The notes beneath the pieces were generated by a model. It was not told where the DNA came from and ran no database searches. It was given only the letters and a program-made list of their open reading frames with translations. Position numbers and translations under genes: made by a program. Positions 9,906-22,205 of a DNA stretch of 23,167 nt are shown piece by piece. Origin of the DNA: a virus. How positions within the stretch are numbered: position 1 is the first letter of the stretch; the number at the start of each line of letters is the position of its first letter. The stretch spans positions 1 through 23,167 of IMG/VR virus record IMGVR_UViG_3300050024_000159. One strand, given 5' to 3'.

Positions 9906-9929
9906 CACCTGATTCAAACACAAACACCC

Positions 9930-10271: not shown

Positions 10272-10276
10272 CAAGT

Positions 10277-10624
10277 ATGATCCTCATAACCTATACACGC
10301 CTCGAACTGGCAACCAGCAAAAAGCAGCTGGATTTTGTCAAGCTGGATTCCCTCGATGACATCTGGGGATGGCTGGACGGACTGGGTGGACAGCTGGTGT
10401 TCCAGCTCACCAATAAAAAGAAAGTTTTAACGCCGCAGGGATTCAAAAAATGCCCCGTTCCAGTCCCAAACGTGATCCAGATCATCAGCGAGGACGAAAA
10501 TACGCTGTTTAACGTGGAAAAGATCATCTGTGAACGCGGCATTTTGTTTTCGAGTATAACTCATTGCTCGGAAGAGTTAGTTGATTACATCGCTTTAAAA
10601 TGCGAAATTCGGCGCACTCAATAA
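10277..10624 (+). CDS. Hypothetical protein, 115 aa
   Basis: I prefer the ATG at 10277, five bases after the upstream stop; an ATG at 10253 would overlap the previous gene by 19 bases. The protein starts with a strand (MILITYTRLELA), has a WGWLDGLGG turn and ends with IALKCEIRRTQ. No family recognised. Its stop is four bases from the end of the convergent endonuclease gene. Confidence 0.72.
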   Translation: MILITYTRLELATSKKQLDFVKLDSLDDIWGWLDGLGGQLVFQLTNKKKVLTPQGFKKCPVPVPNVIQIISEDENTLFNVEKIICERGILFSSITHCSEELVDYIALKCEIRRTQ

Positions 10625-10628
10625 AATA

Positions 10629-11582
10629 TTAAGATAGGTGTTTGTGTTCTATGGGGTTGTCGGTGGTGCGATAACCCCTTTTTGTTTCTATAATGTCGGT
10701 AATGATATTCAAATAAGTTGCGCAATTTTTCGGAGAACATATTGCTCGATCAGCGTCAAGAATACATAAGCTTATATTTTTTTCTATGCAATGTTGAAAT
10801 TTATTATTATCTCGTTCTTGAATTTGATTTAACGTTTTTTCCCCGTATATAGGTTCATAATGAAAAATACCATTAATTTCAAACGCAAGTTTTAATGACG
10901 GAATGTATATATCCAATTCTAACCCTATAGTCACCGAACTATTATATATAATTTCAAGATCAGGGTAGAGTATTCCCAATTGGTCTTCCAGCCATACTTC
11001 TATTTTAGATCGGCGGTAGCCGTATGTTTTATGTGCCGTGTTATATTTACCAGAACAAGTACGTGAGCAAAAAAGTTGAGGATGGTGAAGAATTTTACTT
11101 ACAGTTTTATATACTGGTTTACCACATTCAGCACAGTTGATTAATTTTCTGGTAATATTATGTGCGTGTACACATTTCATTGAACAAAATAAGTTTTTCT
11201 TTACAAGTCGTTTTCTGGAAGGGTCTTTCGTTATTTCTTTTCCGCAATATGCGCAGTTAACAGTTATACTACTTATTTGAAATTTATCAGAGCAATCTTT
11301 AGAGCAAAAATGATTTATTGACCTATTAAACTGGCTGGGAATCTGGGCAATATCTTTACCGCAATAATCACATTGCGATTTTATTGTGTGATCTTTGCTT
11401 TTACTGGCGCACGATTTAGAACAATATTTGCCTTGGTTTTGATAGTGCTTATTACCTGATAAAATAGCAGTAACTATAACTTTTTTCTTTTGAAACGCGT
11501 GGTGACATATTTCGCACTCACATAACAAAAAAGCATTTGCTTTAGCTGTGGTATATTCTTCGGCAGTATAACGCGGTATCAT
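10629..11582 (-). CDS. Zinc-finger-array endonuclease, four fingers (homing-endonuclease-like)
   Basis: 317 residues, homologous along its length to 2389-3453. Four C-x2-C / F-C-S-x2-C modules: Cys21/23, 26, 54, 58; 71, 74, 93, 97; 110, 113, 133, 137; 150, 153, 172, 176. The nuclease domain follows: RRSKIEVWLEDQL, LELDIYIPSLKLAFEINGIF (Glu222, Asp224, Glu235) with His241 next, and ERDNNKF with Asp258. It is one module of about 39 residues shorter than its relative. AT-rich and on the minus strand, it sits between a stop codon and the next promoter, as an intergenic homing endonuclease would. The targets are unknown. Confidence 0.85.
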   Translation of the reverse strand: MIPRYTAEEYTTAKANAFLLCECEICHHAFQKKKVIVTAILSGNKHYQNQGKYCSKSCASKSKDHTIKSQCDYCGKDIAQIPSQFNRSINHFCSKDCSDKFQISSITVNCAYCGKEITKDPSRKRLVKKNLFCSMKCVHAHNITRKLINCAECGKPVYKTVSKILHHPQLFCSRTCSGKYNTAHKTYGYRRSKIEVWLEDQLGILYPDLEIIYNSSVTIGLELDIYIPSLKLAFEINGIFHYEPIYGEKTLNQIQERDNNKFQHCIEKNISLCILDADRAICSPKNCATYLNIITDIIETKRGYRTTDNPIEHKHLS

Positions 11583-11615
11583 ATGGTTGTTTATTATAAA
11601 TATAATGATATTTTG

Positions 11616-11623
11616 AAAAAGTA
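11616..11623 (-). promoter_or_regulatory. Candidate -7 element of the second endonuclease gene
   Basis: Minus-strand TACTTTTT lies 33 bases before the start, the same spacing as in the first endonuclease gene, and the ATATTTATAATAAA block beyond it is conserved. The last base departs from TAnnTTTG and no clear -33 box is seen. Confidence 0.4.
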
Positions 11624-11665
11624 TACCCTATTAATAAAAATACCCAGTTTTATTTCATTAAACAT

Positions 11666-11696
11666 TTTGTAAATCGCAAAATAGTTCGTACCTTTG
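11666..11696 (+). promoter_or_regulatory. Phage promoter for 11719-12372
   Basis: TTTG 11666-11669, spacer with AAATCGCAAAATAGTTCG, TACCTTTG 11689-11696. Confidence 0.86.
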
Positions 11697-11718
11697 TTGA
11701 AACTTTAAAACAATTACA

Positions 11719-12213
11719 ATGGACATGTTCAAGGAATTAATGGAAAAGAACCCCACAGCTAAAATCATCTACGCCGTCACGTGGCTGGATGAAAGCGGAA
11801 GGGAAGTAAAAGACTGGCTGGATGAACCCAAAGCAAGGGAAATATTTGCCCAGCATGCCGCAGAGAACGACGACACCCAGCTCTATAAAGCCTTGGTGAT
11901 TGACCTCGGCGACGGCAAGTGCGACGAACTGCACGGCGAAGTCATTGACAGCCACGAGCCGACAAATCAGAAAACAATTTACAAGAGCATCATCACCATT
12001 GAGGTGCTGCACGAAAAGCCGATTAATATGGAAGAACAAACCCTCGCACGGGTTATTTCAGAAATTGACGACGGCGACTGGTCAGGCAAATTTAGTGTTA
12101 CGGAACAGAACATTCCACTGGTGGGAATGAACGCCGTGGCAGCAACCAAAGCCCAAGGTTCCGATCCTGAATTTTTCGGGATGGACGACGAGGGAAATGA
12201 AACGGAGGACTAA
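11719..12213 (+). CDS. Acidic hypothetical protein, 164 aa
   Basis: Strongly acidic protein with several alternating strands and helices: TAKIIYAVTWLDESGREVKDW near the start, a LYKALVIDLGDGKCDELHGE region in the middle, and a C-terminal tail GMDDEGNETED. Such acidity is common in DNA-mimic and anti-host phage proteins, but that is only a composition argument. First gene of a two-gene unit. Confidence 0.75.
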   Translation: MDMFKELMEKNPTAKIIYAVTWLDESGREVKDWLDEPKAREIFAQHAAENDDTQLYKALVIDLGDGKCDELHGEVIDSHEPTNQKTIYKSIITIEVLHEKPINMEEQTLARVISEIDDGDWSGKFSVTEQNIPLVGMNAVAATKAQGSDPEFFGMDDEGNETED

Positions 12214-12216
12214 GAT

Positions 12217-12372
12217 ATGACAACAACAACAAATATTATTTACCCAGCGTATATTCAGTTAGGTACATATATAGAGGGTAATATTCGCAGAATAAAATTC
12301 AATAAAAACAACCCAAGACATATTAGTTTATTTCATAAGTTTTACAATATTCAATTACAAAAAGTGAAATAA
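12217..12372 (+). CDS. Short AT-rich hypothetical protein, 51 aa
   Basis: Begins MTTTTNIIYPAYIQLG and ends FYNIQLQKVK; the ATG is four bases after the stop of the previous gene. It is basic and rich in Ile, Asn and Tyr, and its DNA is far more AT-rich than its neighbours, so it may be a recent arrival or a fast-evolving small gene. The stop TAA (12370-12372) is directly before the next promoter. No family recognised. Confidence 0.55.
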   Translation: MTTTTNIIYPAYIQLGTYIEGNIRRIKFNKNNPRHISLFHKFYNIQLQKVK

Positions 12373-12373
12373 A

Positions 12374-12405
12374 TTAGGAAAGTCACAAAATAGTTCGTAC
12401 CTTTG
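12374..12405 (+). promoter_or_regulatory. Phage promoter, leaderless type, for 12410-13118
   Basis: TTAG 12374-12377, spacer with GAAAGTCACAAAATAGTTCG, TACCTTTG 12398-12405. The ATG lies only four bases beyond the -7 box, so the message probably starts at or next to the start codon. Confidence 0.87.
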
Positions 12406-12409
12406 TACT

Positions 12410-12712
12410 ATGAAAAAGATAACAAAAAAAGCATTCAGGGAACGGTGTGACTTCCACACGTACACTGGTTCAGGTTCCAAAACCAAGGTAATTTATTATG
12501 ACTGGCAGACCTTTGAACACACGGACATGGAACGTCGGACTGGATTCAAGTACGCAGTACGTGAGGGTAGGGAAAAATTGAAAGCAATTGAATTGTTTAA
12601 CATCCTATATGACTGGGTGGTGAATGAAGTGCAACCGCCTTACTACGTGGGCTACAAATACGCCCCGACTGACAAAGACAGATTCAAAGTACCTTTATCA
12701 TTAAACTTTTAA
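12410..12712 (+). CDS. Duplicated hypothetical protein A, copy 1
   Basis: 100 residues; the paralogue is 13504-13815. Shared stretches include MKKITKKAFRERC at the start, KVIYYDWQ, TGFKYAVRE, a LYDWVVNEV helix, and RFKVPLSLNF at the end. The family appears in phages and function is unknown. The start codon is four bases after the -7 box, giving an apparently leaderless message. In this copy a separate gene has been inserted between A and its coiled-coil partner. Confidence 0.8.
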   Translation: MKKITKKAFRERCDFHTYTGSGSKTKVIYYDWQTFEHTDMERRTGFKYAVREGREKLKAIELFNILYDWVVNEVQPPYYVGYKYAPTDKDRFKVPLSLNF

Positions 12713-12718
12713 ATCACT

Positions 12719-12970
12719 ATGGAAAAAGATAGAATATATTCCCCAAACTCAGTTCATCACGGTTGTTTGATTAGGTCATTAACCAAAGAACAATTTTTAG
12801 TGATTGAAAAAGAAAGAACGGCAGATTTTATTGAATGGCTATTTGATAATCATATTGATATATCGCAATCCAAAGCGTGGAAAGAATTTGAAAATTTTGA
12901 ACTAAACCAAGCAACAAATGAACGCAAAAGCAAAAAAAGAAGCACAGGCAAAAGTAATCGCGCACATTGA
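12719..12970 (+). CDS. Hypothetical protein inserted in cassette copy 1, 83 aa
   Basis: Starts six bases after gene A and overlaps the next gene by 53 bases in another frame. It carries LTKEQFLVIEKERTADFIEW and WKEFENFELN helices and a basic tail (NERKSKKRSTGK) that coincides with the overlap. The second cassette copy lacks it, and the DNA is more AT-rich, so it is probably a later insertion. The overlapping tail may have arisen when the reading frame ran into the neighbour. Confidence 0.6.
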   Translation: MEKDRIYSPNSVHHGCLIRSLTKEQFLVIEKERTADFIEWLFDNHIDISQSKAWKEFENFELNQATNERKSKKRSTGKSNRAH

Positions 12971-13118
12971 CACGGAACTTCGTAATGTTCAGCACGCCGT
13001 ATTTATGAATAAGCGCGCCATAAACGACCTTGTGGAAAAGCAGAAGGTTCTGAAAAAGGAACGCCACGAGCTAAATCAACTTTTATACTCGCTTAAACCA
13101 CCTAAAATATTGGAGTGA
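12918..13118 (+). CDS. Duplicated coiled-coil protein B, copy 1
   Basis: 66 residues; the paralogue is 13818-14015. Almost entirely helical, with the shared block LVEKQKVLKKERHEL near the middle and a hydrophobic heptad pattern (LRNVQHAVFMNKRAINDL). Probably an oligomerising coiled coil, perhaps acting with protein A since the two travel together. Starts inside the preceding gene. Confidence 0.72.
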   Translation: MNAKAKKEAQAKVIAHIDTELRNVQHAVFMNKRAINDLVEKQKVLKKERHELNQLLYSLKPPKILE

Positions 13119-13126
13119 AACTAAAT

Positions 13127-13157
13127 TTGCAAAGTCGCAAAATAGTTCGTACCTTTG
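13127..13157 (+). promoter_or_regulatory. Phage promoter for 13182-13466
   Basis: TTG 13127-13129, spacer with CAAAGTCGCAAAATAGTTCG, TACCTTTG 13150-13157. Confidence 0.9.
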
Positions 13158-13181
13158 CATTTCACTTTAAAACAAACACCA

Positions 13182-13466
13182 ATGAAAGTACTCAGAAGAT
13201 CACAGGTAACACAGGTTCATATTGAACGGGTGGTATCACACGACTTGGAAGTTGACGGTAAAACCTATACCAGATATGAAACTGTTGTGGTAGGCGTGCC
13301 ATATATGGATATGGATATTCTTGTACAGAAACCACAAATCAAATGGGATGAACAAGTGGGCGAACGCACCGTAAAGTATTTGAAAAGAGCCGAGGTAAAG
13401 GCGTTAAATCTGGAAGGCAAATTTGGGGCGTTGGATATCAATGACCGAAACGGAAATGGAAACTAA
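13182..13466 (+). CDS. Hypothetical protein between cassette copies, 94 aa
   Basis: The ATG at 13182 is 25 bases after the -7 box; an upstream in-frame TTG is part of the -7 box itself. Beta-rich, with VHIERVVSHDLEVDGKTYTR and a VVVGVPYMDMDILVQ strand, then KYLKRAEVKALNLEG. No family recognised. It lies between the two A-B cassettes with its own promoter. Confidence 0.72.
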   Translation: MKVLRRSQVTQVHIERVVSHDLEVDGKTYTRYETVVVGVPYMDMDILVQKPQIKWDEQVGERTVKYLKRAEVKALNLEGKFGALDINDRNGNGN

Positions 13467-13468
13467 AT

Positions 13469-13499
13469 TTGCAAAGTCGCAAAATAGTTCGTACCTTTG
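13469..13499 (+). promoter_or_regulatory. Phage promoter, leaderless type, for 13504-14015
   Basis: TTG 13469-13471, spacer with CAAAGTCGCAAAATAGTTCG, TACCTTTG 13492-13499; the ATG is four bases beyond, as in cassette copy 1. Confidence 0.9.
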
Positions 13500-13503
13500 C
13501 AAT

Positions 13504-13815
13504 ATGAAAAAGATAACCAAAAAAGCATTCAGGGAACGCTGCTCATTCCATACCTACAAGGCAACGTCACCACCTTACAGGAATACCAAAGTGATCTATT
13601 ATGACTGGCAGAGCTTTGGGCATACGGACAACGAACGCCATACTGGATTCAAATACGCCGTACGTGAGGAACGGCAGCCGATGAAGGCAAAGGAATTATT
13701 CGACGTCTTATATGAATGGGTGGTGAATGAGGTTGAGCTGCCATATTATGTAGGCTACCAATACGCCGCAACTGACAAAGAACGTTTCAAAGTGCCTTTA
13801 TCCTTAAACTTTTAA
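13504..13815 (+). CDS. Duplicated hypothetical protein A, copy 2
   Basis: 103 residues, clearly paralogous to 12410-12712 with the same start, core and RFKVPLSLNF end. It differs mainly by a short insertion (ATSPPYRN) near residue 20. I chose the ATG at 13504 because it matches the copy 1 start; longer in-frame readings run through the promoter. Protein B follows two bases after the stop. Confidence 0.8.
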   Translation: MKKITKKAFRERCSFHTYKATSPPYRNTKVIYYDWQSFGHTDNERHTGFKYAVREERQPMKAKELFDVLYEWVVNEVELPYYVGYQYAATDKERFKVPLSLNF

Positions 13816-13817
13816 CA

Positions 13818-14015
13818 ATGACCACAAAAGCCAAAACCAAAGCAGCAGCACACCAGCTGGTAATCGACCACCTCGACAGGGAACTGAGGGAAGCCCAGTA
13901 CGCCGTGCTTAAAAACAAGCGTGAAATCAATGCGCTGGTGGAAAAACAGAAAGTTTTGAAGAAAGAGAGGCACGAGTTAACTCAGTTACTTTTTTCCTTG
14001 AAAGTTATTCCTTAG
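13818..14015 (+). CDS. Duplicated coiled-coil protein B, copy 2
   Basis: 65 residues, paralogue of 12918-13118: shared VEKQKVLKKERHEL block and similar heptads (LDRELREAQYAVLKNKREI). It directly follows protein A with no inserted gene, which is probably the ancestral arrangement. Ends TAG, followed by a 76-base stretch with inverted repeats. Confidence 0.75.
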   Translation: MTTKAKTKAAAHQLVIDHLDRELREAQYAVLKNKREINALVEKQKVLKKERHELTQLLFSLKVIP

Positions 14016-14016
14016 A

Positions 14017-14088
14017 CGCTGGTGCTTGAGCAGGCTCACCACCTTAAATTTGTCAAAGACAAGCAGTACTTAACATCTTAAACCAGCG
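14017..14088. repeat. Inverted repeat between genes (CGCTGGT / ACCAGCG)
   Basis: CGCTGGT at 14017-14023 is the inverse of ACCAGCG at 14082-14088. CGCTGGTG and GGCTCACCA each recur inside the next small gene (14193-14200 and 14181-14189). TTGTC and GACAA near 14050-14062 form a small inner hairpin. The stretch may fold in RNA, but its role is unknown. Confidence 0.5.
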
Positions 14089-14091
14089 CTA

Positions 14092-14229
14092 ATGAAGGGT
14101 AAGTATACCAAATGGGAAAGGATATGGGGAGTGAGCATGATTATACTCGTTGCGCTCGCCATTTTTTCCTTGGTTATATTGGCTCACCAATGCGCTGGTG
14201 AATTATATAATTTATTTGGAAAGTCGTAA
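14092..14229 (+). CDS. Small single-pass membrane protein, 45 aa
   Basis: Starts MKGKYTKWERIWG, then one hydrophobic helix (about residues 15-31, SMIILVALAIFSLVILA) and a short tail ending LFGKS. The basic N-terminus suggests a cytoplasmic N-terminus with the helix crossing the inner membrane. The last codons GGA AAG TCG and the TAA (14227-14229) lie inside the following promoter. Small phage membrane proteins of this type include inhibitors and lysis accessories, but nothing here decides. It is probably the third gene of the 13504 operon. Confidence 0.6.
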   Translation: MKGKYTKWERIWGVSMIILVALAIFSLVILAHQCAGELYNLFGKS

Positions 14230-14246
14230 AATAGTTCTTATATTTG
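14216..14246 (+). promoter_or_regulatory. Phage promoter for 14273-14793
   Basis: TTG 14216-14218, spacer with GAAAGTCGTAAAATAGTTCT, -7 variant TATATTTG 14239-14246. It contains the stop of the upstream small gene. Confidence 0.83.
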
Positions 14247-14272
14247 CATCTTAATTTTAAACGTATAGTTAT

Positions 14273-14560
14273 ATGAAAAGGAAAAGAACAACCATCACAC
14301 CCGCAATGGAACAACGAGTGGTAGAAATGCTGAAACTCGGCATGCATAAGTCCAGCATTATAAAAGAAGTTGGTATATCCACGACCAGCGTGGGAAGGGT
14401 TATTAAAAGAAACGCATCATCAATTCCACCCGAATTACTGGCTAAATTGATTCATGTTTCAAAGCTGCATAAACCAGTCGGCTCCATACTTATCACCATA
14501 TCCCGTACAATGAACGGGAAGGTGCATATCGCCCCCGATGGTATATACATAAACTATTAA
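14273..14560 (+). CDS. Helix-turn-helix DNA-binding protein
   Basis: 95 residues. After a basic start (MKRKRTT), residues 8-44 form a resolvase or transposase-type helix-turn-helix: ITPAMEQRVVEMLKLGMHKS, then IIKEVGISTTSVGRVIKR with the usual G-I-S turn. The C-terminal half is beta-rich (VGSILITISRT, GKVHIAPDGIYINY) and may be a dimerisation or ligand domain. A candidate regulator of the repeated promoters here, though nothing direct shows it. First of two genes. Confidence 0.78.
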   Translation: MKRKRTTITPAMEQRVVEMLKLGMHKSSIIKEVGISTTSVGRVIKRNASSIPPELLAKLIHVSKLHKPVGSILITISRTMNGKVHIAPDGIYINY

Positions 14561-14571
14561 ATCATAAACCT

Positions 14572-14793
14572 ATGAGCGCATTAGGCGGATTACTGGCATA
14601 CGGGCAAATGTTTGCTACCGAAATGAAGGTTGGCAGGGAACTGAGGAAACAGGAACTGCTGGAACGCTGGGAGAAATCCAAGGACATGCCCCGCAAGAAG
14701 AAGAAACAGGAACGAAAAGATATCAACCTGACATGGTCTATTGTCAGCTGGAATCCGCTTCCCTTCGACTTGGATGATTTTAGCTTATTTTAA
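14572..14793 (+). CDS. Hypothetical protein, 73 aa
   Basis: Eleven bases after the HTH gene and in its operon. Short glycine-containing start (MSALGGLLAYGQMFATEM), a charged helix (ELRKQELLERWEK), a lysine-rich stretch (RKKKKQERKD), and an acidic aromatic tail ending FDLDDFSLF. No family recognised. Confidence 0.68.
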   Translation: MSALGGLLAYGQMFATEMKVGRELRKQELLERWEKSKDMPRKKKKQERKDINLTWSIVSWNPLPFDLDDFSLF

Positions 14794-14800
14794 AGATCGT

Positions 14801-14831
14801 TTGGAAAGTCGTAAAATAGTTCGTACCTTTG
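14801..14831 (+). promoter_or_regulatory. Phage promoter for 14860-15270
   Basis: TTG 14801-14803, spacer with GAAAGTCGTAAAATAGTTCG, TACCTTTG 14824-14831. Confidence 0.9.
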
Positions 14832-14859
14832 CATTGAACATTTAAACACAAACACCACC

Positions 14860-15270
14860 ATGCACCGAACAGAAGTTTTATGCCCCGAGTGCTTCAAAGG
14901 CAAACTGCTGAAAGAAGACTCAACCAAAGACACAGGAAGCGGATATTGCGACCGTTGTGGAACCGCCTTTATTTTTACGGGCAAATTGTCCGTACGCTAT
15001 GCCACCGCTGGCGACATCAAAGACCAGCCGAAGGCAAGGGTTGAAGAACCCAAACCAAAGCAGAAATTCTATGTTACCATCATGAGCATTGATCCCGACA
15101 TACGGGACAGCGAAGACCCTCATCAAAAGTATGGCTACACCATTGAAGCCACAGACAAAAAAGAAGCCGAAGAAATTGCACGGCAGACATTTTCCGAAGA
15201 TTATGACGACTGCCCCATTGCATGGGTGGACATAAGCAACGGAATGCCCCTGCGCGCAATGTCAGCCTAA
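14860..15270 (+). CDS. Zinc-ribbon protein, 136 aa
   Basis: The N-terminal 35 residues hold a zinc ribbon: CPEC (Cys8, Cys11) and CDRC (Cys30, Cys33). A proline and lysine rich linker (around 56-68) leads to a C-terminal domain with FYVTIMSIDPD and an EATDKKEAEEIARQTF helix, the latter resembling small accessory domains of phage proteins. The ribbon may bind nucleic acid or protein. Followed by a terminator. Confidence 0.77.
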   Translation: MHRTEVLCPECFKGKLLKEDSTKDTGSGYCDRCGTAFIFTGKLSVRYATAGDIKDQPKARVEEPKPKQKFYVTIMSIDPDIRDSEDPHQKYGYTIEATDKKEAEEIARQTFSEDYDDCPIAWVDISNGMPLRAMSA

Positions 15271-15282
15271 TCCATTTGAAAG

Positions 15283-15306
15283 AAGTGGGAGCAACCCCAC
15301 TTTTTT
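15283..15306 (+). terminator. Rho-independent terminator
   Basis: AAGTGGG pairs with CCCACTT around a short loop, ending in a run of six T; it closes the zinc-ribbon gene unit. Confidence 0.87.
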
Positions 15307-15307
15307 C

Positions 15308-15338
15308 TTGTTTAATTGGAAAATAGTTCGTATCTTTG
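15308..15338 (+). promoter_or_regulatory. Phage promoter for 15356-15652, diverged spacer
   Basis: TTG 15308-15310 (in the tail of the terminator), 20-bp spacer that has AAAATAGTTCG but lacks AAAGTCG, TATCTTTG 15331-15338. Confidence 0.8.
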
Positions 15339-15355
15339 CGTCAAATAAAACGGCA

Positions 15356-15652
15356 ATGAAAAAAGAAGAAATCATCAGTGACCAATATCCTGAGAGCAAA
15401 ATGCTGTTCGCTGACGGGTTCGACGACGCTATTCTTGGAGTGGATGACAACCGATGGAACCATACCAAAGGCGATGAGGATGATGGTACCAAGAAACGGG
15501 TTGTTTACTCAGTGACCAAGATCATCAAGGTTCTGATGGAACGTGATGGGATGGATTACGAAACAGCAAGGGAACATTTTGACTTTAATATCGCAGGTGG
15601 CTACGTGGGCGTTCATACACCCGTATTCGTGGAAGATGAAGATTTGGAATAA
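15356..15652 (+). CDS. Conserved hypothetical phage protein, 98 aa
   Basis: Start chosen at the ATG 18 bases after the -7 box. Motifs MLFADGFDDAILGVDD, RVVYSVTKIIKVLMERDGMD and a FNIAGGYVGVHTPVF end match a short family found across many phages and mobile elements, function unknown. Mostly acidic at both ends. Confidence 0.82.
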   Translation: MKKEEIISDQYPESKMLFADGFDDAILGVDDNRWNHTKGDEDDGTKKRVVYSVTKIIKVLMERDGMDYETAREHFDFNIAGGYVGVHTPVFVEDEDLE

Positions 15653-15654
15653 AT

Positions 15655-15685
15655 TTGGAAAGTCACAAAATAGTTCGTACCTTTG
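15655..15685 (+). promoter_or_regulatory. Phage promoter for 15705-16412
   Basis: TTG 15655-15657, spacer with GAAAGTCACAAAATAGTTCG, TACCTTTG 15678-15685. Confidence 0.9.
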
Positions 15686-15704
15686 TAATCTAAATCGCAA
15701 AACA

Positions 15705-16007
15705 ATGGCAACAAAAACATGGAAAATTGGTGAGTGCTGCAAAGGTGGAATCATCACCGTCGAAATAAAAGGTAAAGACGTCGCAGTCATTGGCAAGCGG
15801 TGGGATCACTCCGCTGGCGACCGCAGAAGCTCCAACCAGAACAACGCAAAAGAATGGACAAGGGAAACCGTTAACGTTGGTCAGGCAGCAGCCTACCAGA
15901 CCGTGAGGGATTTTCTGGAAGACCTAACCACCAGCTACTATGCTGGAGAAATCATCAAATGGATTGAAACAAAAGTAACGTTGAACGCCTTCGGATATTC
16001 CTACTAA
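15705..16007 (+). CDS. Hypothetical protein, 100 aa
   Basis: The ATG at 15705 is 20 bases after the -7 box; longer frames read through the promoter and are rejected. The N-terminal part is a small beta domain (KIGECCKGGIITVEIKGKDVAVIGK); the rest is helical (VGQAAAYQTVRDFLEDL). No family recognised. It is in an operon with the alpha-CTD-like gene, 12 bases apart. Confidence 0.74.
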   Translation: MATKTWKIGECCKGGIITVEIKGKDVAVIGKRWDHSAGDRRSSNQNNAKEWTRETVNVGQAAAYQTVRDFLEDLTTSYYAGEIIKWIETKVTLNAFGYSY

Positions 16008-16019
16008 AAATAAAACAAT

Positions 16020-16412
16020 ATGAGTGATGCTTATGATTATCTGAAAGCCGCTGGCGCAAGCATACGACTACTCAACGCTGTAGCTGGATTACATACAAAA
16101 GAATCCAAGATCAAAACATTGGGCGAGCTGGTTCACTACATTCGGAAGTATGGGTACCAAAGTTTAAGGTGTTGCACACGTGGAATGGGAAAGAAGTCCA
16201 TCACGGAATTGGAATGTATTATGAACGAATATATTGGCACGTCCTCCCCGCACGTTCCCGTCATTATGGTCATTGACCTGCAAGTGAACAAAGAGATGAC
16301 GCTGGAAAGCCTCGACGTAAAATCAGGCAAAGCGGTCATTCATAGCGACCAGTATGGTTATTGCTCCCAGACCATATCCAACCTGAAATTCGTTAACAAC
16401 CACCTGAAATAA
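16020..16412 (+). CDS. RNA polymerase alpha C-terminal-domain-like protein
   Basis: 130 residues. Residues 14-72 read like the helix-hairpin-helix alpha-CTD of bacterial RNA polymerase: SIRLLNAVAGL, IKTLGELVHYI, then RGMGKKSITELECIMNEYI, matching the LGxLV and GKKSxTEI patterns of the alpha subunit. The rest (about 75-130) is a short beta-rich extension. A free alpha-CTD-like protein could bind upstream DNA or activators, or compete with the host subunit, and so act on the repeated promoters; that role is inferred. Such domains also occur in other DNA-binding proteins. Confidence 0.75.
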   Translation: MSDAYDYLKAAGASIRLLNAVAGLHTKESKIKTLGELVHYIRKYGYQSLRCCTRGMGKKSITELECIMNEYIGTSSPHVPVIMVIDLQVNKEMTLESLDVKSGKAVIHSDQYGYCSQTISNLKFVNNHLK

Positions 16413-16414
16413 AA

Positions 16415-16446
16415 TTAGGAAAATCATAAAATAGTTCGTACCTTTG
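16415..16446 (+). promoter_or_regulatory. Phage promoter for 16466-16687
   Basis: TTAG 16415-16418, spacer with GAAAATCATAAAATAGTTCG, TACCTTTG 16439-16446. Confidence 0.87.
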
Positions 16447-16465
16447 TACTCTAAATCAAAACACA

Positions 16466-16687
16466 ATGGCAACAATGAATCTGCGTAAAATGATATTACT
16501 CCGAATCAATAAATTGCGTAAAGATTACGGTGGTGAATTTTCCAAAAATCTAATGCGTTGGCAAACGCCGATATCCACAGTTGGTGGGCACGTTTACGCC
16601 TACAATGTAGAGTGGGAAAAATTAGACGATGCTAATTTATTGTATTTGTATGAAAAATTGTTAATCAGACACCACGCTAAAATGTAA
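16466..16687 (+). CDS. Hypothetical protein, 73 aa
   Basis: Basic helical protein: LRKMILLRINKLRKDYGGEF at the start, an aromatic middle (GGHVYAYNVEWEK) and a DDANLLYLYEKLL helix. No family recognised. Single-gene unit. Confidence 0.72.
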   Translation: MATMNLRKMILLRINKLRKDYGGEFSKNLMRWQTPISTVGGHVYAYNVEWEKLDDANLLYLYEKLLIRHHAKM

Positions 16688-16704
16688 ACTGAAGTAAAAA
16701 TAAA

Positions 16705-16736
16705 TTAGGAAAATCGAAAAATAGTTCGTACCTTTG
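16705..16736 (+). promoter_or_regulatory. Phage promoter for the lipoprotein gene
   Basis: TTAG 16705-16708, spacer with GAAAATCGAAAAATAGTTCG, TACCTTTG 16729-16736; the leader to the ATG is 37 bases. Confidence 0.86.
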
Positions 16737-16773
16737 TAGTTCAACTTTATGTTTAACATTAAAATCAACACCG

Positions 16774-17184
16774 ATGAAAAGAGTAACCCTGTTTATGGCA
16801 CTTATCGCTTTTGCGATGATGTTTGCCTCGTGTGAAAAGACTAACGAGGCTAAGCCGATTGCTATCCCGTACACCGTGAACCTGACGGTGGATAACCAAA
16901 CCAATGCCACAGCCGTACTGAACGTATCATACGGACTGGATAACGGCAAAATGCAATACGGAAATACCCTGATTGCCTCCGCTTCATTTCCCGTCGGCAC
17001 AGCAACCAAAACCTTTACGGTGAACAGCACCTCAACAATCTATATGCTGTTTGCCGTGGCGGATGCCAATACGGAAATCACAGTCCTGCAAAACGGAACG
17101 TACACTCCATACGGGGATGCTTACAACGAATCCCTGTTCACCTCACCCGAGGCGGCTATATCTTTCGCCGTCAAACCAAAATAA
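16774..17184 (+). CDS. Predicted lipoprotein, 136 aa
   Basis: Signal peptide of 19 residues (basic MKR, hydrophobic core to FAMM) ending in the lipobox F-A-S-C at 17-20, so Cys20 should be lipidated and the protein anchored to the cell envelope. The mature part is a single beta-rich domain with many Thr and Asn (VNLTVDNQTNATAVLNVSYG). Phage lipoproteins of this size are often superinfection-exclusion proteins or host-surface modifiers; which applies here is unknown. A terminator follows, so it is a sealed single-gene unit. Confidence 0.82.
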   Translation: MKRVTLFMALIAFAMMFASCEKTNEAKPIAIPYTVNLTVDNQTNATAVLNVSYGLDNGKMQYGNTLIASASFPVGTATKTFTVNSTSTIYMLFAVADANTEITVLQNGTYTPYGDAYNESLFTSPEAAISFAVKPK

Positions 17185-17206
17185 TTCTTGTCGTTGCCAA
17201 TGTCAG

Positions 17207-17239
17207 GAACGGGGCGCCGAAAGGTACCCCGTTCTTTTT
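17207..17239 (+). terminator. Rho-independent terminator after the lipoprotein gene
   Basis: GAACGGGG 17207-17214 pairs with CCCCGTTC, followed by TTTTT. Confidence 0.9.
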
Positions 17240-17250
17240 GTAAACTAAAT

Positions 17251-17281
17251 TTGGAAAGTTATAAAATACTTCGTACCTTTG
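17251..17281 (+). promoter_or_regulatory. Phage promoter for 17301-17916
   Basis: TTG 17251-17253, spacer with GAAAGTTATAAAATACTTCG, TACCTTTG 17274-17281. Confidence 0.88.
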
Positions 17282-17300
17282 CATTCTAAACCACAACACA

Positions 17301-17666
17301 ATGACACAGGATAAAAATATGGTATGTGAACTCAATGGCGATGCTGACGAGTTTGACGTTGAAAACTTCTTTGAATCCTTTCAGGCTGCACTGAACCGCA
17401 CCCGCTTGAAAACCTTTTACGTCGAGGGATTTAACTTGAACTGGCAGGGAAAATCAGGACACCTGTTTTTAACAACCAACAAGGCACAGGAGGTACTGAG
17501 TAAAATTCAGCCTCATACCGACGATATCACCGTCGAGGTATTCAAACCGACAACCGAGGACAGCTGGAAGCTGAAAGTGGTTATCTATCATCATGACTGC
17601 CCGACGGGATCAAAAATGTACTTCTATTCAACAAAATACGGCATAACCGCACAAACACCTGACTGA
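17301..17666 (+). CDS. Hypothetical protein, 121 aa
   Basis: Mixed alpha and beta protein. A helix around FFESFQAALNRTRL is followed by strands FYVEGFNLNWQGKSG, GHLFLTTNKAQEVL and KLKVVIYHHDCPTG. No family recognised. The following gene begins one base after its stop, so the two form an operon. Confidence 0.74.
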   Translation: MTQDKNMVCELNGDADEFDVENFFESFQAALNRTRLKTFYVEGFNLNWQGKSGHLFLTTNKAQEVLSKIQPHTDDITVEVFKPTTEDSWKLKVVIYHHDCPTGSKMYFYSTKYGITAQTPD

Positions 17667-17667
17667 C

Positions 17668-17916
17668 ATGAGCAATTTTAAACCGCAATTCAGCATCCCG
17701 AGACAGAACGTTCCGTACTGGGATAAAAAGAAGTCCGACGATTATTCCTTTCCTACGTACAGGGAACTCAAAAGAAACCTTGTAGCAATCATGAAGAAAC
17801 ATAACGTCGACGAGGTATGCGTATCACGCTCACGGCGTGGAAGTTTTGGTGAGTGGTTTGAATACTGGCATAGGTATGGCAACGTGCTGGTTAAGGGCAA
17901 GGAAGGCTGGTTGTAA
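17668..17916 (+). CDS. Hypothetical protein, 82 aa
   Basis: Second gene of a tight operon (TGAC-ATG junction). Basic, with RELKRNLVAIMKKHNVDEVC in the middle and a SRSRRGSFGEWFEYW run near residues 53-67. No family recognised; the composition would suit RNA or DNA contact. Confidence 0.72.
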   Translation: MSNFKPQFSIPRQNVPYWDKKKSDDYSFPTYRELKRNLVAIMKKHNVDEVCVSRSRRGSFGEWFEYWHRYGNVLVKGKEGWL

Positions 17917-17922
17917 AATAAA

Positions 17923-17954
17923 TTAGGAAAAGTGCAAAATACTTCGTACCTTTG
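17923..17954 (+). promoter_or_regulatory. Phage promoter for 17977-18264
   Basis: TTAG 17923-17926, spacer with AAAAGTGCAAAATACTTCG, TACCTTTG 17947-17954. Confidence 0.85.
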
Positions 17955-17976
17955 CATTTCACTTAAAGAAACAACA

Positions 17977-18264
17977 ATGGAAATCACGGTCAAACAAATC
18001 GAAAAATTCGTTAAGGTCAGAAACAAATCTGCCTTCAGCAGCAACCTGCAATTTACGGCAAACTTTCATTCACACCTAAAAAATAAACCAATGGCATTCG
18101 AAACATATCATATCAAAATAGCTGGCGCAGGAACCCGCAAAGACGTTGTAAGCGCATTACGCACCTTGGCAGACGATCTGGACTGCACCCCAGCCGAAGA
18201 ATTAAACACCTCACATACCAGCTACGAGGACGACACCTTGATGGCAGAATGGTTTGAGTTGTAA
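17977..18264 (+). CDS. Hypothetical protein, 95 aa
   Basis: The ATG at 17977 is 23 bases after the -7 box. A second in-frame ATG at 18091 (MAFETYHIKIAG) has the AATAAACCA context typical of starts here and would give a compact 57-residue protein; the first 38 residues could be an extension or an older fused leader. The core has strands and a RKDVVSALRTLADDLD helix, with an acidic end. No family recognised. Confidence 0.66.
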   Translation: MEITVKQIEKFVKVRNKSAFSSNLQFTANFHSHLKNKPMAFETYHIKIAGAGTRKDVVSALRTLADDLDCTPAEELNTSHTSYEDDTLMAEWFEL

Positions 18265-18270
18265 GTAAAT

Positions 18271-18301
18271 TTGGAAAATTGGAAAATAGTTCATACCTTT
18301 G
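18271..18301 (+). promoter_or_regulatory. Phage promoter for 18322-18618
   Basis: TTG 18271-18273, 20-bp spacer ending TAGTTCA, TACCTTTG 18294-18301. Confidence 0.85.
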
Positions 18302-18321
18302 TAACCTAAAACTTTATTCAC

Positions 18322-18618
18322 ATGAAATATCTTATTAAATTTTTTGGCGTAATCGCCTTATTTGCGTTCGCCGTGTTTTACGGAGCTTTTTGCTGGGGGC
18401 TGGTATGCTTCAAATTTTGGGGTTGGTTCATCCTGCCCGCATTTCCTTCCCTGCCAGTATTAAACTATATGCTGTGCGTGGGGCTGATATTCTTTATCGG
18501 ACTGTTTCATAGTAGGGCTCCCTCTGGCAAGCCAGATACGGAAGCGTGGATTGGAGCAATAATTTCCCCTTGGATTACCCTTGGCGCTGGCTGGCTCGTA
18601 CACAGCACGATCATGTAA
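18322..18618 (+). CDS. Small multi-pass membrane protein, 98 aa
   Basis: Three hydrophobic stretches: about 5-29 (FFGVIALFAFAVFYGAF), 33-60 (GWFILPAFPSLPVLN into LCVGLIFFIGLF) and 75-96 (IGAIISPWITLGAGWLV). The basic start suggests N-terminus inside. No family recognised; candidates include envelope-modifying or lysis-related phage proteins. It is followed by a structured stretch and a terminator. Confidence 0.75.
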   Translation: MKYLIKFFGVIALFAFAVFYGAFCWGLVCFKFWGWFILPAFPSLPVLNYMLCVGLIFFIGLFHSRAPSGKPDTEAWIGAIISPWITLGAGWLVHSTIM

Positions 18619-18674
18619 AGATATTTAAGATCAAAAACTGACCGTTATATAGTCCTTGACACATGATAGGATGG

Positions 18675-18726
18675 ATCGGCTCCAGTTATCCGATGGCAGT
18701 TTGCCCTGCCAAGGCAAATCGGATAA
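18675..18726 (+). other. Structured RNA element in the 3' region
   Basis: A perfect 9-bp outer stem (TTATCCGAT 18686-18694 with ATCGGATAA 18718-18726) encloses GGCAG-TTTGCC-CTGCC-AA-GGCAA. The two inner pairings (GGCAG with CTGCC; TTTGCC with GGCAAA) are interleaved, so they form a pseudoknot or alternative hairpins. ATCGG at 18675-18679 can also pair with CCGAT 18690-18694, competing with the outer stem. This could be a regulatory element or small RNA upstream of the terminator; no match to a known family. Confidence 0.5.
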
Positions 18727-18730
18727 AAGA

Positions 18731-18756
18731 CCCCGTCGAAAGGCGGGGTTTTTTAT
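18731..18756 (+). terminator. Rho-independent terminator
   Basis: CCCCGTC 18731-18737, GAAA loop, GGCGGGG 18742-18748, then six T. Confidence 0.92.
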
Positions 18757-18768
18757 TTTAAATAATGT

Positions 18769-18799
18769 TTGGAAAGTTATAAAATACTTCGTACCTTTG
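18769..18799 (+). promoter_or_regulatory. Phage promoter for 18820-19513
   Basis: TTG 18769-18771, spacer with GAAAGTTATAAAATACTTCG, TACCTTTG 18792-18799. Confidence 0.89.
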
Positions 18800-18819
18800 T
18801 ACTCTAAATCAAAAACACA

Positions 18820-19065
18820 ATGGCAACCAAGAAAATGATGCAGCAAACCCTCAACGAGAACGGAATGGAACACATTACCGTCGTCAACAAAAACAATGTT
18901 AAGACCCACGTGGACGGTGAAGAAACCACCTTTGAACGCAGCGATGAGCTCTGGATGAGCAACGGCTCAGGGTTGGCAACATTCGGCTCCGTCGCTGGTG
19001 ATTGGCGAATGATACAGGCAATTTCCGAGGACATCACACACGCTTTTGGACTCATTAAATCGTAA
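18820..19065 (+). CDS. Hypothetical protein, 81 aa
   Basis: Small soluble protein. Strands around EHITVVNKNNVKTHVDGEET and a glycine-rich WMSNGSGLATFGSVAG segment lead to a final helix. No family recognised. The next gene starts four bases after the stop. Confidence 0.73.
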   Translation: MATKKMMQQTLNENGMEHITVVNKNNVKTHVDGEETTFERSDELWMSNGSGLATFGSVAGDWRMIQAISEDITHAFGLIKS

Positions 19066-19069
19066 TCCA

Positions 19070-19513
19070 ATGAAAACACTTACGAGTAAAATGGATAAGA
19101 AGCAACTGAACCGAATAACCAGTTTCCTACCCGATGGTAAACCAAGGAAAATACGTTGCTATGATAACGGTGGTGAAACAGCCGACCGCTATACTTGCGT
19201 ATTCACAGGCAGTTATAAAAAACACACGGACGGCGAACATTGGTACCTTGGAATGAGTGGCAACCCATTTCATCCATTAGGAGTTGCAGATCATGGTGGA
19301 AGCCGTACGCAAATTGATTACCCTTCCTATAAGCACCTCGGAAAAAAAATCAAATATGACCAGCTTAGTATTCATGCCCAGCTATGTATTATGCAAACCT
19401 ATCTCTATCTATGGAGCTTCACCGATGATGATGGCAACTGGCTGGATTCCAAAGGAAATAAAACGGGCAGTAAAATAATCTTTTCTTGCGGACGGATTGA
19501 CCTTCCAAAATAA
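19070..19513 (+). CDS. Conserved hypothetical phage protein, 147 aa
   Basis: The ATG at 19070 is four bases after the preceding stop; an in-frame TTG at 19046 lies inside that gene. Motifs RKIRCYDNGGETADRYTCVF, WYLGMSGNPFHPLGVADHG and IDYPSYKHLGKKI match a widespread phage and mobile-element family of unknown function. Second gene of a two-gene operon. Confidence 0.82.
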   Translation: MKTLTSKMDKKQLNRITSFLPDGKPRKIRCYDNGGETADRYTCVFTGSYKKHTDGEHWYLGMSGNPFHPLGVADHGGSRTQIDYPSYKHLGKKIKYDQLSIHAQLCIMQTYLYLWSFTDDDGNWLDSKGNKTGSKIIFSCGRIDLPK

Positions 19514-19515
19514 AT

Positions 19516-19546
19516 TTGGAAAGTTATAAAATAGTTCGTACCTTTG
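19516..19546 (+). promoter_or_regulatory. Phage promoter for 19572-19901
   Basis: TTG 19516-19518, spacer with GAAAGTTATAAAATAGTTCG, TACCTTTG 19539-19546. Confidence 0.9.
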
Positions 19547-19571
19547 CATTGAACTTAAAAACAACGACACA

Positions 19572-19901
19572 ATGAAAAACATCAGCGAATTTATCCCGAA
19601 AAATTACAGGGAGTTCTATTCAATGCAGGAACTTGTTTCCGCAATATCCCGCACCCTGAAAGTCATCACATGGGCTGCTTGTGGATGGACAAAAATGAAC
19701 AAGGCTTTACTCCGCTTCAGGGTAAGCGCACACCGACATAAAGGCTATGTCTATATCGCTGTGAACGGCGCTGACCTGTTCGACATCTGGCTGACCAACC
19801 TTAAAGGCGATGTTAAAAAGACCTTTACCGACGTGTACGTCGAAGACCTGATCACCGTAATCGACGACGAAATTGAAAAAATGCCTGACTATATTCGCTA
19901 A
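19572..19901 (+). CDS. Conserved hypothetical phage protein, 109 aa
   Basis: A helix with ISRTLKVITWAACGW precedes a compact domain: LLRFRVSAHRHKGYVYIAVN, ADLFDIWLTNLKGDV and VYVEDLITVIDDEIEKM. This order recalls small phage and plasmid proteins of unknown role that carry the KGxVYIxxN strand. Single-gene unit, followed by the cloverleaf-like element. Confidence 0.78.
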   Translation: MKNISEFIPKNYREFYSMQELVSAISRTLKVITWAACGWTKMNKALLRFRVSAHRHKGYVYIAVNGADLFDIWLTNLKGDVKKTFTDVYVEDLITVIDDEIEKMPDYIR

Positions 19902-19920
19902 AAATAAGCTGTGGCAAAAG

Positions 19921-20002
19921 GAAACCGCACCCAGACGCAAGTCTGGGGTTGCTTCGCCCACAAGGCGAATGACATATCTGGATTCGATTTCCAGCGGATT
20001 TT
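19921..20002 (+). ncRNA. Cloverleaf-like RNA element (possible degenerate tRNA)
   Basis: GAAACCG 19921-19927 pairs with CGG(A)TTTT 19995-20002 (one bulge) and closes three hairpins: CCCAGAC-GCAA-GTCTGGG 19930-19947; TTCGCC-CACAA-GGCGAA 19953-19969 (17 bases, the size of an anticodon arm); and CTGGA-TTCGATT-TCCAG 19978-19994, a perfect T-arm with consensus T-loop. Two bases separate the first stem from the first hairpin, as in a tRNA. There is no normal D-arm, no clear anticodon and no CCA. It could be a tRNA mimic or a decayed tRNA. Confidence 0.45.
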
Positions 20003-20018
20003 ATTTCTAAAATAATCC

Positions 20019-20049
20019 TTGCAAAGTTATAAAATAGTTCGTACCTTTG
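20019..20049 (+). promoter_or_regulatory. Phage promoter for 20076-20447
   Basis: TTG 20019-20021, spacer with CAAAGTTATAAAATAGTTCG, TACCTTTG 20042-20049. Confidence 0.9.
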
Positions 20050-20075
20050 CATCGAACATTTAAAACAACACGACA

Positions 20076-20447
20076 ATGGCAGCAACAATGAAAATAATCA
20101 CCGACCTTATCGCAAGCTGGAACACCTCGGGAACAAACTCAAAACACGACCCAGCCTTCGTTGACTTCAAACGCAAATTTAAAAGCGCCCTGACCGCTGA
20201 ACTCAAAAAAATCAACGCCCTTAACATCGTATTCAGTTACGGACACTACTACATCAGCGGGTTCTTTACGGTGAACTCACAAGCCTATTACTTCAGCATT
20301 GGCGACGTCCGTTGTTTCTTCCGCATGGGCAACATCGAGTTTCCTCTGTTATATCGTACCGCCCAGCACTACAAAGATTGGACAGGTGGATATAACCAAT
20401 ACGCCCCGCTGGAAAAGGATATGTTTTTGCGCTCCAGCATAAAATAA
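20076..20447 (+). CDS. Conserved hypothetical phage protein, 123 aa
   Basis: N-terminal helix ending FKRKFKSALTAELKK, then a beta domain with GHYYISGFFTVNSQAYYFSI, DVRCFFRM and a LLYRTAQHYKDWTGGYNQYA motif. The LYRTAxHYKDxTGG run recurs in small phage and mobile-element proteins of unknown function. Single-gene unit. Confidence 0.8.
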   Translation: MAATMKIITDLIASWNTSGTNSKHDPAFVDFKRKFKSALTAELKKINALNIVFSYGHYYISGFFTVNSQAYYFSIGDVRCFFRMGNIEFPLLYRTAQHYKDWTGGYNQYAPLEKDMFLRSSIK

Positions 20448-20450
20448 CCT

Positions 20451-20481
20451 TTGGAAAGTTGCGAAATAGTTCGTACCTTTG
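20451..20481 (+). promoter_or_regulatory. Phage promoter for 20505-20801
   Basis: TTG 20451-20453, spacer with GAAAGTTGCGAAATAGTTCG, TACCTTTG 20474-20481. Confidence 0.89.
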
Positions 20482-20504
20482 CATCTCACTTAAACCTTAA
20501 ACCA

Positions 20505-20801
20505 ATGAAAACGACAACCGACAACCCAAACGTAAACGCTGACAACATTAAAAAAATGTCGCTCAGGGAAATTGCCAACATCATCTTTGAAACAGACCGC
20601 GAAAACTGGCGTGCCAAACATGGCAAATATTACGGTGCTATTCCTTACCTCGACGCAATGAGCTGTCTGGATAACATCAGCCAGAACTACGGAATGGACA
20701 GCGGAAAATCCATCGTGGCATACTTCCTTGGAAACGCCCAAACATGGCAGGGTGCAACGGCAAAAATCGTAAAAGCTGAACTGAACAAACGACTGAAATA
20801 A
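20505..20801 (+). CDS. Hypothetical protein, 98 aa
   Basis: Start at the ATG 24 bases after the -7 box; the frame is open through the promoter from a TTG, which is rejected. Helical: MSLREIANIIFETDRENW, a Tyr-rich KYYGAIPYLDAMSCL turn and AKIVKAELNKRLK at the end. No family recognised beyond general resemblance to small phage helical proteins. A terminator follows. Confidence 0.76.
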   Translation: MKTTTDNPNVNADNIKKMSLREIANIIFETDRENWRAKHGKYYGAIPYLDAMSCLDNISQNYGMDSGKSIVAYFLGNAQTWQGATAKIVKAELNKRLK

Positions 20802-20822
20802 TATTGTTGCCGTGTTTTTCGC

Positions 20823-20867
20823 CCGCCTTGTTAGTACCAACCTTTGGGAACGCAAGGCGGATTTTTT
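20823..20867 (+). terminator. Rho-independent terminator with long loop
   Basis: CCGCCTTG 20823-20830 pairs with CAAGGCGG 20853-20860, then ATTTTTT. The 22-base loop is unusually long. Confidence 0.82.
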
Positions 20868-20931
20868 ATTGCTATGTCTATGTACTATATAATAGGGCGC
20901 CAAACAAATTTAAAAATAAATCTATTTTAAT

Positions 20932-20962
20932 TTGGTGAATCGAAAAATACTTCGTACCTTTG
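20932..20962 (+). promoter_or_regulatory. Phage promoter for the second DUF932 gene
   Basis: TTG 20932-20934, spacer with AATCGAAAAATACTTCG, TACCTTTG 20955-20962; the leader is 43 bases, the longest in the window. Confidence 0.86.
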
Positions 20963-21005
20963 TTCTCGTTAATGCAATGCAGCACTAACATAAAAAATAA
21001 ACCAC

Positions 21006-21938
21006 ATGATATTAGGAACCAACATCGGAAAAAACCTTGACGTCCTCGCAATGTTAATGCAATATGGACTTGCTTGGGGAGTTAAAAAAGTCAGGCTGGC
21101 ACTTGTCAATGAACCACAGCCAAACGAAAAACCAACCTTTTACACCAACGAAAACGGCACCGTTATTGAAGCCACAGAGGACAGGGCAATTGTCCGTGAC
21201 GACAATAACCATATTCTTTCAATCCAAAAGGAATCATATGAAGTTTATGACAATTATAAACTGGGCGATCTTTTTCTTTCGGCTTCGGAAAAATCAGGAC
21301 TGACTGTCGACAAAGCAGGTTCATTCAAAGGTGGCGCCTTGGTTTATATGCAGTTTAATTCTTCCGTCCTTCATCTTGATAACGACACCGTAAATGGCAG
21401 GTTCACCGTTATTAATTCATTTGACGGATCGAAAGCCCTCGGAATGGGCTTATCAAACACCGTTATTTCTTGCATGAATACATTTAACGCCGCTTACAAA
21501 CAGGTACAAAGCAAAATTCGCCACACCAAAAATATGCAACTGAAAGTTGACGACGTAATTAACGCCTTTGACGAATTCCGCAAGGAAGAACAGGATCACT
21601 TCAAACTCATCCGCAAACTGACCACGGCACCCCTCACACCAGCAAATGTTGACCTTGCACTCAAAACCATGTTCGATGTGTCCGCCTCTGACATCCTGAA
21701 CACTCCAAAGGAAATCAGCACCCGTAAAATGAACGACGTTATCCGCTTCCAGTCCGCCCTGCAAACCGAACTGACCCAGAAAGGAAATACACTTTGGGGT
21801 CTATTTAACGGGGTGACAAGGTACACCAGCCACATGATAAAAAACACCGACGCAGAACGGGAAGAAGCTAAACTGTTCGGAACTGTCGCCAACAAGGAAC
21901 GTGCCCTTTTTGCCGCCTTTTCAAAAATGGTTGCATAA
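21006..21938 (+). CDS. DUF932-family phage/plasmid-like protein
   Basis: 310 residues, larger than the DUF932 protein at 5555-6352. The order of motifs fits the phage/plasmid-like group: a start with LAMLMQYGLAWGVKK, RAIVRDDNNHILSI then SYEVYDNYKLGDL, FKGGALVYMQ, VINSFDGSKALGMGLSNTVISCMNTF, IRHTKNMQLKVDDV, and NTLWGLFNGVTRYTSHM near residues 263-279. The family is common in phages and plasmids and its activity is unknown. It has its own promoter and terminator. Confidence 0.88.
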   Translation: MILGTNIGKNLDVLAMLMQYGLAWGVKKVRLALVNEPQPNEKPTFYTNENGTVIEATEDRAIVRDDNNHILSIQKESYEVYDNYKLGDLFLSASEKSGLTVDKAGSFKGGALVYMQFNSSVLHLDNDTVNGRFTVINSFDGSKALGMGLSNTVISCMNTFNAAYKQVQSKIRHTKNMQLKVDDVINAFDEFRKEEQDHFKLIRKLTTAPLTPANVDLALKTMFDVSASDILNTPKEISTRKMNDVIRFQSALQTELTQKGNTLWGLFNGVTRYTSHMIKNTDAEREEAKLFGTVANKERALFAAFSKMVA

Positions 21939-21958
21939 CCGTCCAGCACACCAGCCAT

Positions 21959-21985
21959 AAGCCCGCCCGCCAGCGGGCTTTTTTT
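21959..21985 (+). terminator. Rho-independent terminator
   Basis: AAGCCCGC 21959-21966 pairs with GCGGGCTT, then a T-run. Confidence 0.91.
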
Positions 21986-22174
21986 ATGTTCTTTCCCGCC
22001 CGCTGACAGACTTAAATACTTTGCCCATGCAACGGTGCCACTTTGCCCCGTTCGTTCATTATAGAGCCTTAAATCAAATAAACTGGTTGCCCTTATGTCT
22101 TTTGATTACTTATATATAAGGCGAAAAATTGTAACCCAAGTTGTAACCCTGACAAAAATAAATTAAAATAACCT
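21986..22174. other. Non-coding stretch with a direct repeat and an imperfect hairpin
   Basis: No ORF is supported here. TTGTAACCC occurs twice in direct orientation (22129-22137 and 22141-22149, period 12). GCCCTTAT and ATAAGGC (around 22089-22122) form an imperfect inverted pair around an AT-rich loop. These could be protein-binding sites or a recombination site; nothing decides. Confidence 0.45.
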
Positions 22175-22205
22175 TTGGAAAGTCGGAAAATACTTCGTAC
22201 CTTTG
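22175..22205 (+). promoter_or_regulatory. Phage promoter for 22237-22917
   Basis: TTG 22175-22177, spacer with GAAAGTCGGAAAATACTTCG, TACCTTTG 22198-22205. Confidence 0.89.

Follow-up and report, generated by a model that had tools for sequence, protein, structure and literature searches.

What does a phage gain from a small protein that resembles the C-terminal domain of the RNA polymerase alpha subunit (alpha-CTD), in a region where one and the same promoter recurs upstream of gene after gene? The question is raised by an open reading frame of 130 codons within the stretch of DNA analysed here (the window), a single linear virus record of 23,167 bases, both strands of which were read in and around the gene (Table 1). 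The preliminary description of this locus had proposed that such a protein steers the host polymerase towards phage genes or away from host genes. The reading frame begins at the CTD and the alpha-NTD, the assembly domain, is absent; thus, the protein cannot assemble into polymerase. Its start codon lies 12 nt past the end of a 100-aa gene, and within the window it has no promoter of its own; it comes second in a two-gene unit that starts from the promoter at 15654-15685.

The gene belongs to a Bacteroidota phage of large size (about 160 kb), where it lies in the accessory arm, which is transcribed from the promoter array described below. Via a DUF932 gene at window positions 5555-6352 we reached a relative, the 161-kb phage contig IMGVR_UViG_3300020048_000023 (hereafter G010), and the window is collinear with its right end over about 20 genes that share 32-69% identity. 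The only long genes opposing the direction of the promoter array are a pair of zinc-ribbon, homing-endonuclease-like genes on the minus strand (2389-3711 and 10629-11582), whose G010 counterparts are 53-56% identical and stand at two places.

Table 1. Features of the alpha-CTD-like gene, its surroundings in the window and its counterpart in G010.
Feature	Position	Strand	Evidence
alpha-CTD-like protein, 130 aa, ATG start	16020-16412	+	ORF; alpha-CTD profile E 3e-5; ortholog in G010
alpha-CTD-like domain, aa 1-75	16020..16244	+	AF2 model, VIA-align superposition, residue correspondence
Beta-rich C-terminal tail with three predicted strands, assigned to no known family	16287..16409	+	AF2 pLDDT ~70
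100-aa gene 'MATKTW', function not assigned, first in two-gene unit	15705..16007	+	ORF
Host-type promoter of the two-gene unit: -33 TTTG (15654-15657), 20-bp spacer, -7 TACCTTTG (15678-15685)	15654..15685	+	
Next promoter, directly 3' of the alpha-CTD gene, -33 element TTAG	16415..16446	+	
33 near-identical promoters forming an array, most with one small gene directly downstream	743..22205	all +	
G010 ortholog of the alpha-CTD protein, 130 aa	155121-155510 (G010)		E 4.5e-4 by single-protein search
G010 sigma factor (Sigma70_r2, weak r4)	114554-115636 (G010)		

The resemblance to alpha-CTD was borne out by a profile, by superposition of a structure model and by an ortholog. In Pfam, alpha-CTD (PF03118) is the only family within E<=1 for the window protein, with a score of 12.7 bits that lies under the curated cut-off of 23.8. 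A profile built from Bacteroidales RpoA and viral-contig alpha-CTDs, from which the window protein was left out, scored it at 23.6 bits among 16,856 ORFs. The best non-alpha-CTD ORF in the same set, a 702-aa protein that is probably a DNA-ligase helix-hairpin-helix judging by its length and rank, reached 11.7 bits, and the top score among 5000 shuffles of the window protein was 11.0 bits. No close relative emerged from a protein scan of viral contigs, a search of PHROGs gave no significant match, and phmmer with the single sequence found none in the PDB. The sole tblastn match in annotated phages (a 735-kb phage, E 3) fell within a DNA-polymerase-like ORF and was taken as chance. Scanning with the family alignment of two sequences (A4) likewise confirmed no relative; for the tblastn step, even the G010 ortholog was too diverged.

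Given a family alignment that included alpha-CTDs, AF2 modelled aa 1-70 of the protein with block pLDDT values of 81-93. VIA-align superposed this model on residues 254-313 of E. coli alpha with a Z-score of 8.0 (1.5 A, 60 residues, 30% identity), and the 18 best chains were all RNAP alpha-CTDs (Z 5.5-8.0), followed by BAF at 5.1 and RuvA at 2.7. These chains surfaced when Foldseek candidates were realigned with VIA-align; Foldseek itself gave no match against the PDB at E<=0.001 and listed Tudor-like entries first. With the ortholog as its only companion sequence, AF2 returned an unusable model (pLDDT 42.5). Because the alpha-CTD family guided the good model, the evidence from the fold is not independent of sequence homology. 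Structure prediction against alpha-CTD, which the preliminary description had put forward as a check, hence gives the expected fold by way of a model that leans on the family alignment. Closer similarity to another helix-hairpin-helix family, named there as an argument against the assignment, was not what we found: alpha-CTD is far closer than RuvA or the best non-alpha-CTD ORF. Computation thus shows an alpha-CTD-type helix-hairpin-helix domain, as judged from sequence and model, joined to a variable C-terminal tail. The domain is distinguished by two inserts: helix 1 is followed by about 5 extra aa, and a further 4-5 aa precede the GKKS helix. The strands predicted by AF2 in the tail lie at aa 93-118.

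Residues R16, N19, G57, K58, K59, S60 and E63 of the window protein correspond to R265, N268, G296, K297, K298, S299 and E302 of E. coli alpha, among which R265, N268, G296, K298, S299 and E302 are known DNA contacts in E. coli. Six of the eight positions in the full contact set (R265, N268, C269, K291, G296, K298, S299 and E302) are kept in both the window and the G010 protein; C269 is replaced by Ala or Ser, and K291 is not conserved in the two. The picture is different at positions 259 and 261, whose acidic side chains contact sigma at its region 4. Here the window protein carries A and G and its ortholog P and R, without an acid in either, whereas of 16 reference domains 13 carry D or E at 259 and 10 an acid at 261.

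Identification of the G010 ortholog, which is syntenic with the window gene, was supported by phmmer against all ORFs of that contig (E 1.7e-4, next ORF 0.7) and by a Pfam alpha-CTD match of its own (15.3 bits), weak though independent. The two proteins share 22% identity over their whole length and have diverged faster than neighbouring genes; the preceding 100-aa gene is 63% identical to its G010 counterpart in alignment. Their C-terminal halves do not align, the tail being beta-rich in the window model and probably helical in G010. Thus, different tails are attached to one alpha-CTD module. The G010 gene is served by a promoter of its own that follows a terminator-like hairpin and whose -7 element (TACCTTCG) is slightly degenerate. 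The sigma factor encoded by G010 suggests a later class of transcription served by the host core polymerase, and no polymerase was seen among the 20 largest ORFs scanned. Taken together, a sigma factor without a visible polymerase indicates that such phages probably redirect host RNAP. Elsewhere in G010, at 30.7-38.0 kb (L235:10734-18044), there is a CRISPR-Cas set resembling type I-B (Cas6b, Cas5b, Cas3b, Cas8b and Cas7b), accompanied by a 20-repeat array.

The promoters themselves are as numerous as the preliminary description had it, which spoke of more than thirty repeats: with at most one mismatch, GTNCNTACCTTTG matches the window 35 times against 0.38 expected, and -33/-7 promoters on the plus strand account for 33 sites, all but one (32/33) with an ATG 4-37 nt downstream. 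When aligned, they read TTTG, a 20-bp spacer and TACCTTTG, and the spacer itself is almost invariant. Promoters of the Bacteroidota primary sigma factor have TTTG at -33 and TAnnTTTG at -7 (PMC7366714), a pattern that the array fits as type TTTG-N20-TANNTTTG. Among bacterial genomes, the 18-bp core AAATAGTTCGTACCTTTG is present in 114 stretches, of which nearly all are from Bacteroidales. A spacer matrix derived from 64 other promoters in those stretches scored the window at 11.1, G010 at 10.2, host promoters at 6.6 and the shuffled window at -4.6; one from unselected Prevotella ruminicola sequence gave 7.9 for the window, 6.2 for the host and -4.0 after shuffling (n=12), and an Alistipes spacer matrix repeated the pattern weakly (n=9). 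The array therefore consists of idealised host primary-sigma promoters with a host-optimal spacer, and as such they should not need an activator. An invariant spacer might be regarded as the operator of a phage regulator; this is unnecessary, as host promoters prefer the same spacer. Host preference does not fully account for the greater spacer invariance of the window compared with most other phages. Tandem duplicate small genes at 12410-12712 and 13423-13815 (MKKITKKAFRERC...) each have their own promoter copy, which is separated from the ATG by only 4 nt. A different kind of uniform array, with a conserved downstream TTTAGGTATNAATAATTAAAA and a variable spacer, occurs in the Flavobacterium phage immuto (L146).

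Placing the protein within a uniform promoter regulon, as had been proposed, did not hold, since the promoters are of host type and comparable arrays occur where alpha-CTD was not detected. Similar arrays with 20-bp, sometimes 19-bp, spacers are found in dozens of Bacteroidota phage contigs, as records that may be incomplete, without a detectable alpha-CTD; the contig G069, for instance, has repeated TTTGGTAGATTCAAAATAATTACTATCTTTGC promoters with conserved spacers and no alpha-CTD match. Only one of 40 DUF932 phage records, G010, contains an alpha-CTD-like ORF. Three further alpha-CTD matches below threshold, in two DUF932 records, fell in long unrelated ORFs or in frames that are interrupted. 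A relative of the neighbouring 100-aa gene is present in 12 phage records, and again only G010 encodes the alpha-CTD-like ORF. The protein is thus dispensable to the promoter system.

These observations bear directly on the possibility that the protein is a phage activator, which would bind the uniform promoters in their spacer or upstream region and recruit the host polymerase. In its favour, no other array examined has 20-bp spacers as conserved as those of the two encoding phages (26 and 22 bits; the others range from 6 to 19, with a median of about 11), and in both phages the spacer holds an A-tract followed by AGTT. However, window and G010 represent one lineage, so that the correlation between spacer and protein has n=1. 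Moreover, the spacer equals the host optimum according to both the Bacteroidales and the P. ruminicola matrices, and is conserved in arrays such as that of G069 as well. Conservation in the UP region of the window is weak, amounting to 5.7 bits over 20 upstream positions, and the acids at 259/261 are missing. We therefore consider an activator doubtful. Somewhat less doubtful, and still unlikely, is a helix-hairpin-helix accessory factor that works outside transcription, in repair, recombination, packaging or nuclease control, and is nearest to alpha-CTD by chance. Helix-hairpin-helix domains are widespread non-specific DNA binders, a variable tail and a narrow distribution would suit an accessory gene, and the neighbouring genes have no known function. 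A chance likeness is hard to reconcile with sequence and model both lying so much nearer to alpha-CTD than to its competitors, and with the retention of the alpha-CTD pattern R..N and GKKS..E in both phages.

Rather than DNA, the target might be protein. Many host activators make contact with alpha-CTD, and a free domain could compete for them, diverting them from polymerase with no need for DNA. A contact between CRP and alpha-CTD has been noted (PMC2988021). Since conservation in the two phages centres on the DNA-contact residues and not on the acidic surface, we regard such a decoy as quite improbable. With the grip on DNA kept and the acidic sigma-facing residues lost, the simplest interpretation is that the protein would act at A/T-rich upstream DNA, either as a competitor or in an architectural role. 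Our preferred explanation, offered tentatively, is thus a putative DNA-binding protein derived from alpha-CTD that acts on transcription by the host polymerase through the A/T-rich minor groove, by competition or as an architectural factor, and without a private promoter code. The retained contact residues would insert into the A/T-rich minor groove, and the protein would occupy UP-like, A-tract DNA near promoters, or else surfaces that the host alpha-CTD normally uses. This would weaken host promoters dependent on UP elements or activators, while the near-consensus phage promoters would need little help and remain active. Such a protein would achieve without enzymatic activity what T4 Alt/ModA bring about by ADP-ribosylation of Arg265. 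For the window protein, we infer DNA binding, inhibition of the host and timing.

Viral alpha-CTD proteins are more widespread than expected. Chains that combine HTH_17, sigma-70 region 4 and a clear alpha-CTD occur in viral contigs, mostly from rumen Bacteroidales (L131-L138), and in Prevotella genomes (L126/L127), and these fusions are apparently undescribed. Short alpha-CTD proteins are also present in L143 and L145, and in one viral contig (L140:1715-2602) an alpha-CTD is joined to a DUF3310 domain of the phage 'nucleotide kinase' type. In the literature searched, whose coverage was incomplete, we found no description of phage-encoded alpha-CTD proteins. The alpha-CTD domain itself is known already; what this locus would add is a phage protein aimed at host transcription and built from a domain of the host polymerase. 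It is conceivable, if on the unlikely side, that a solitary alpha-CTD mimic in some large Bacteroidota phages competes with the host alpha-CTD for DNA or activators, as a non-enzymatic counterpart of T4 Alt/ModA. It would then be possibly the first case found of a phage protein taking over transcription by mimicry of an alpha domain, and part of a wider, undescribed viral alpha-CTD set that includes the sigma-4-alpha-CTD fusions. Few studies have addressed how Bacteroidota phages take over transcription, and the promoter of their hosts is unusual. Being small and easily expressed, an alpha-CTD mimic of this kind offers a direct handle on phage action on the host polymerase and may inform the contribution of alpha-CTD at Bacteroidota promoters; the host-optimal phage spacer is a ready-made consensus for strong Bacteroidota promoters.

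Compared with the alpha-CTD of RpoA (PF03118), the window protein shares the fold, by model superposition, and R265, N268, G296, K298, S299 and E302, and differs in its two short inserts, the non-acidic positions 259/261, the unrelated C-terminal tail and a score below the Pfam cut-off. Like the HTH-sigma region 4-alpha-CTD fusions, it represents an alpha-CTD outside RpoA in Bacteroidota viral contigs. In contrast to those regulators, which comprise 273-343 aa and have clear alpha-CTDs (Pfam E 2e-19 in L131), it is small, strongly diverged and near-solitary.

Further parallels come from phage proteins that target the host alpha subunit. T4 combines early 'uber' promoters with Alt and ModA, which ADP-ribosylate Arg265 of alpha (PMC2988021). 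The array in the window resembles the 'uber' promoters in that over-optimised host promoters serve one small early gene or unit each, the difference being that the latter are built from UP, -35, TGn and -10 elements and the former are of the Bacteroidota TTTG-N20-TANNTTTG type. With T4 Alt/ModA and the phiKMV-type Rac (PMC2988021, PMC7552054), the window protein would share its target, alpha-CTD-dependent transcription, and in these phages, as here, the phage promoters come close to the ideal of the host enzyme. Alt/ModA and Rac act enzymatically, modifying alpha or bringing about its cleavage, whereas the protein described here is a putative mimic of the domain itself.
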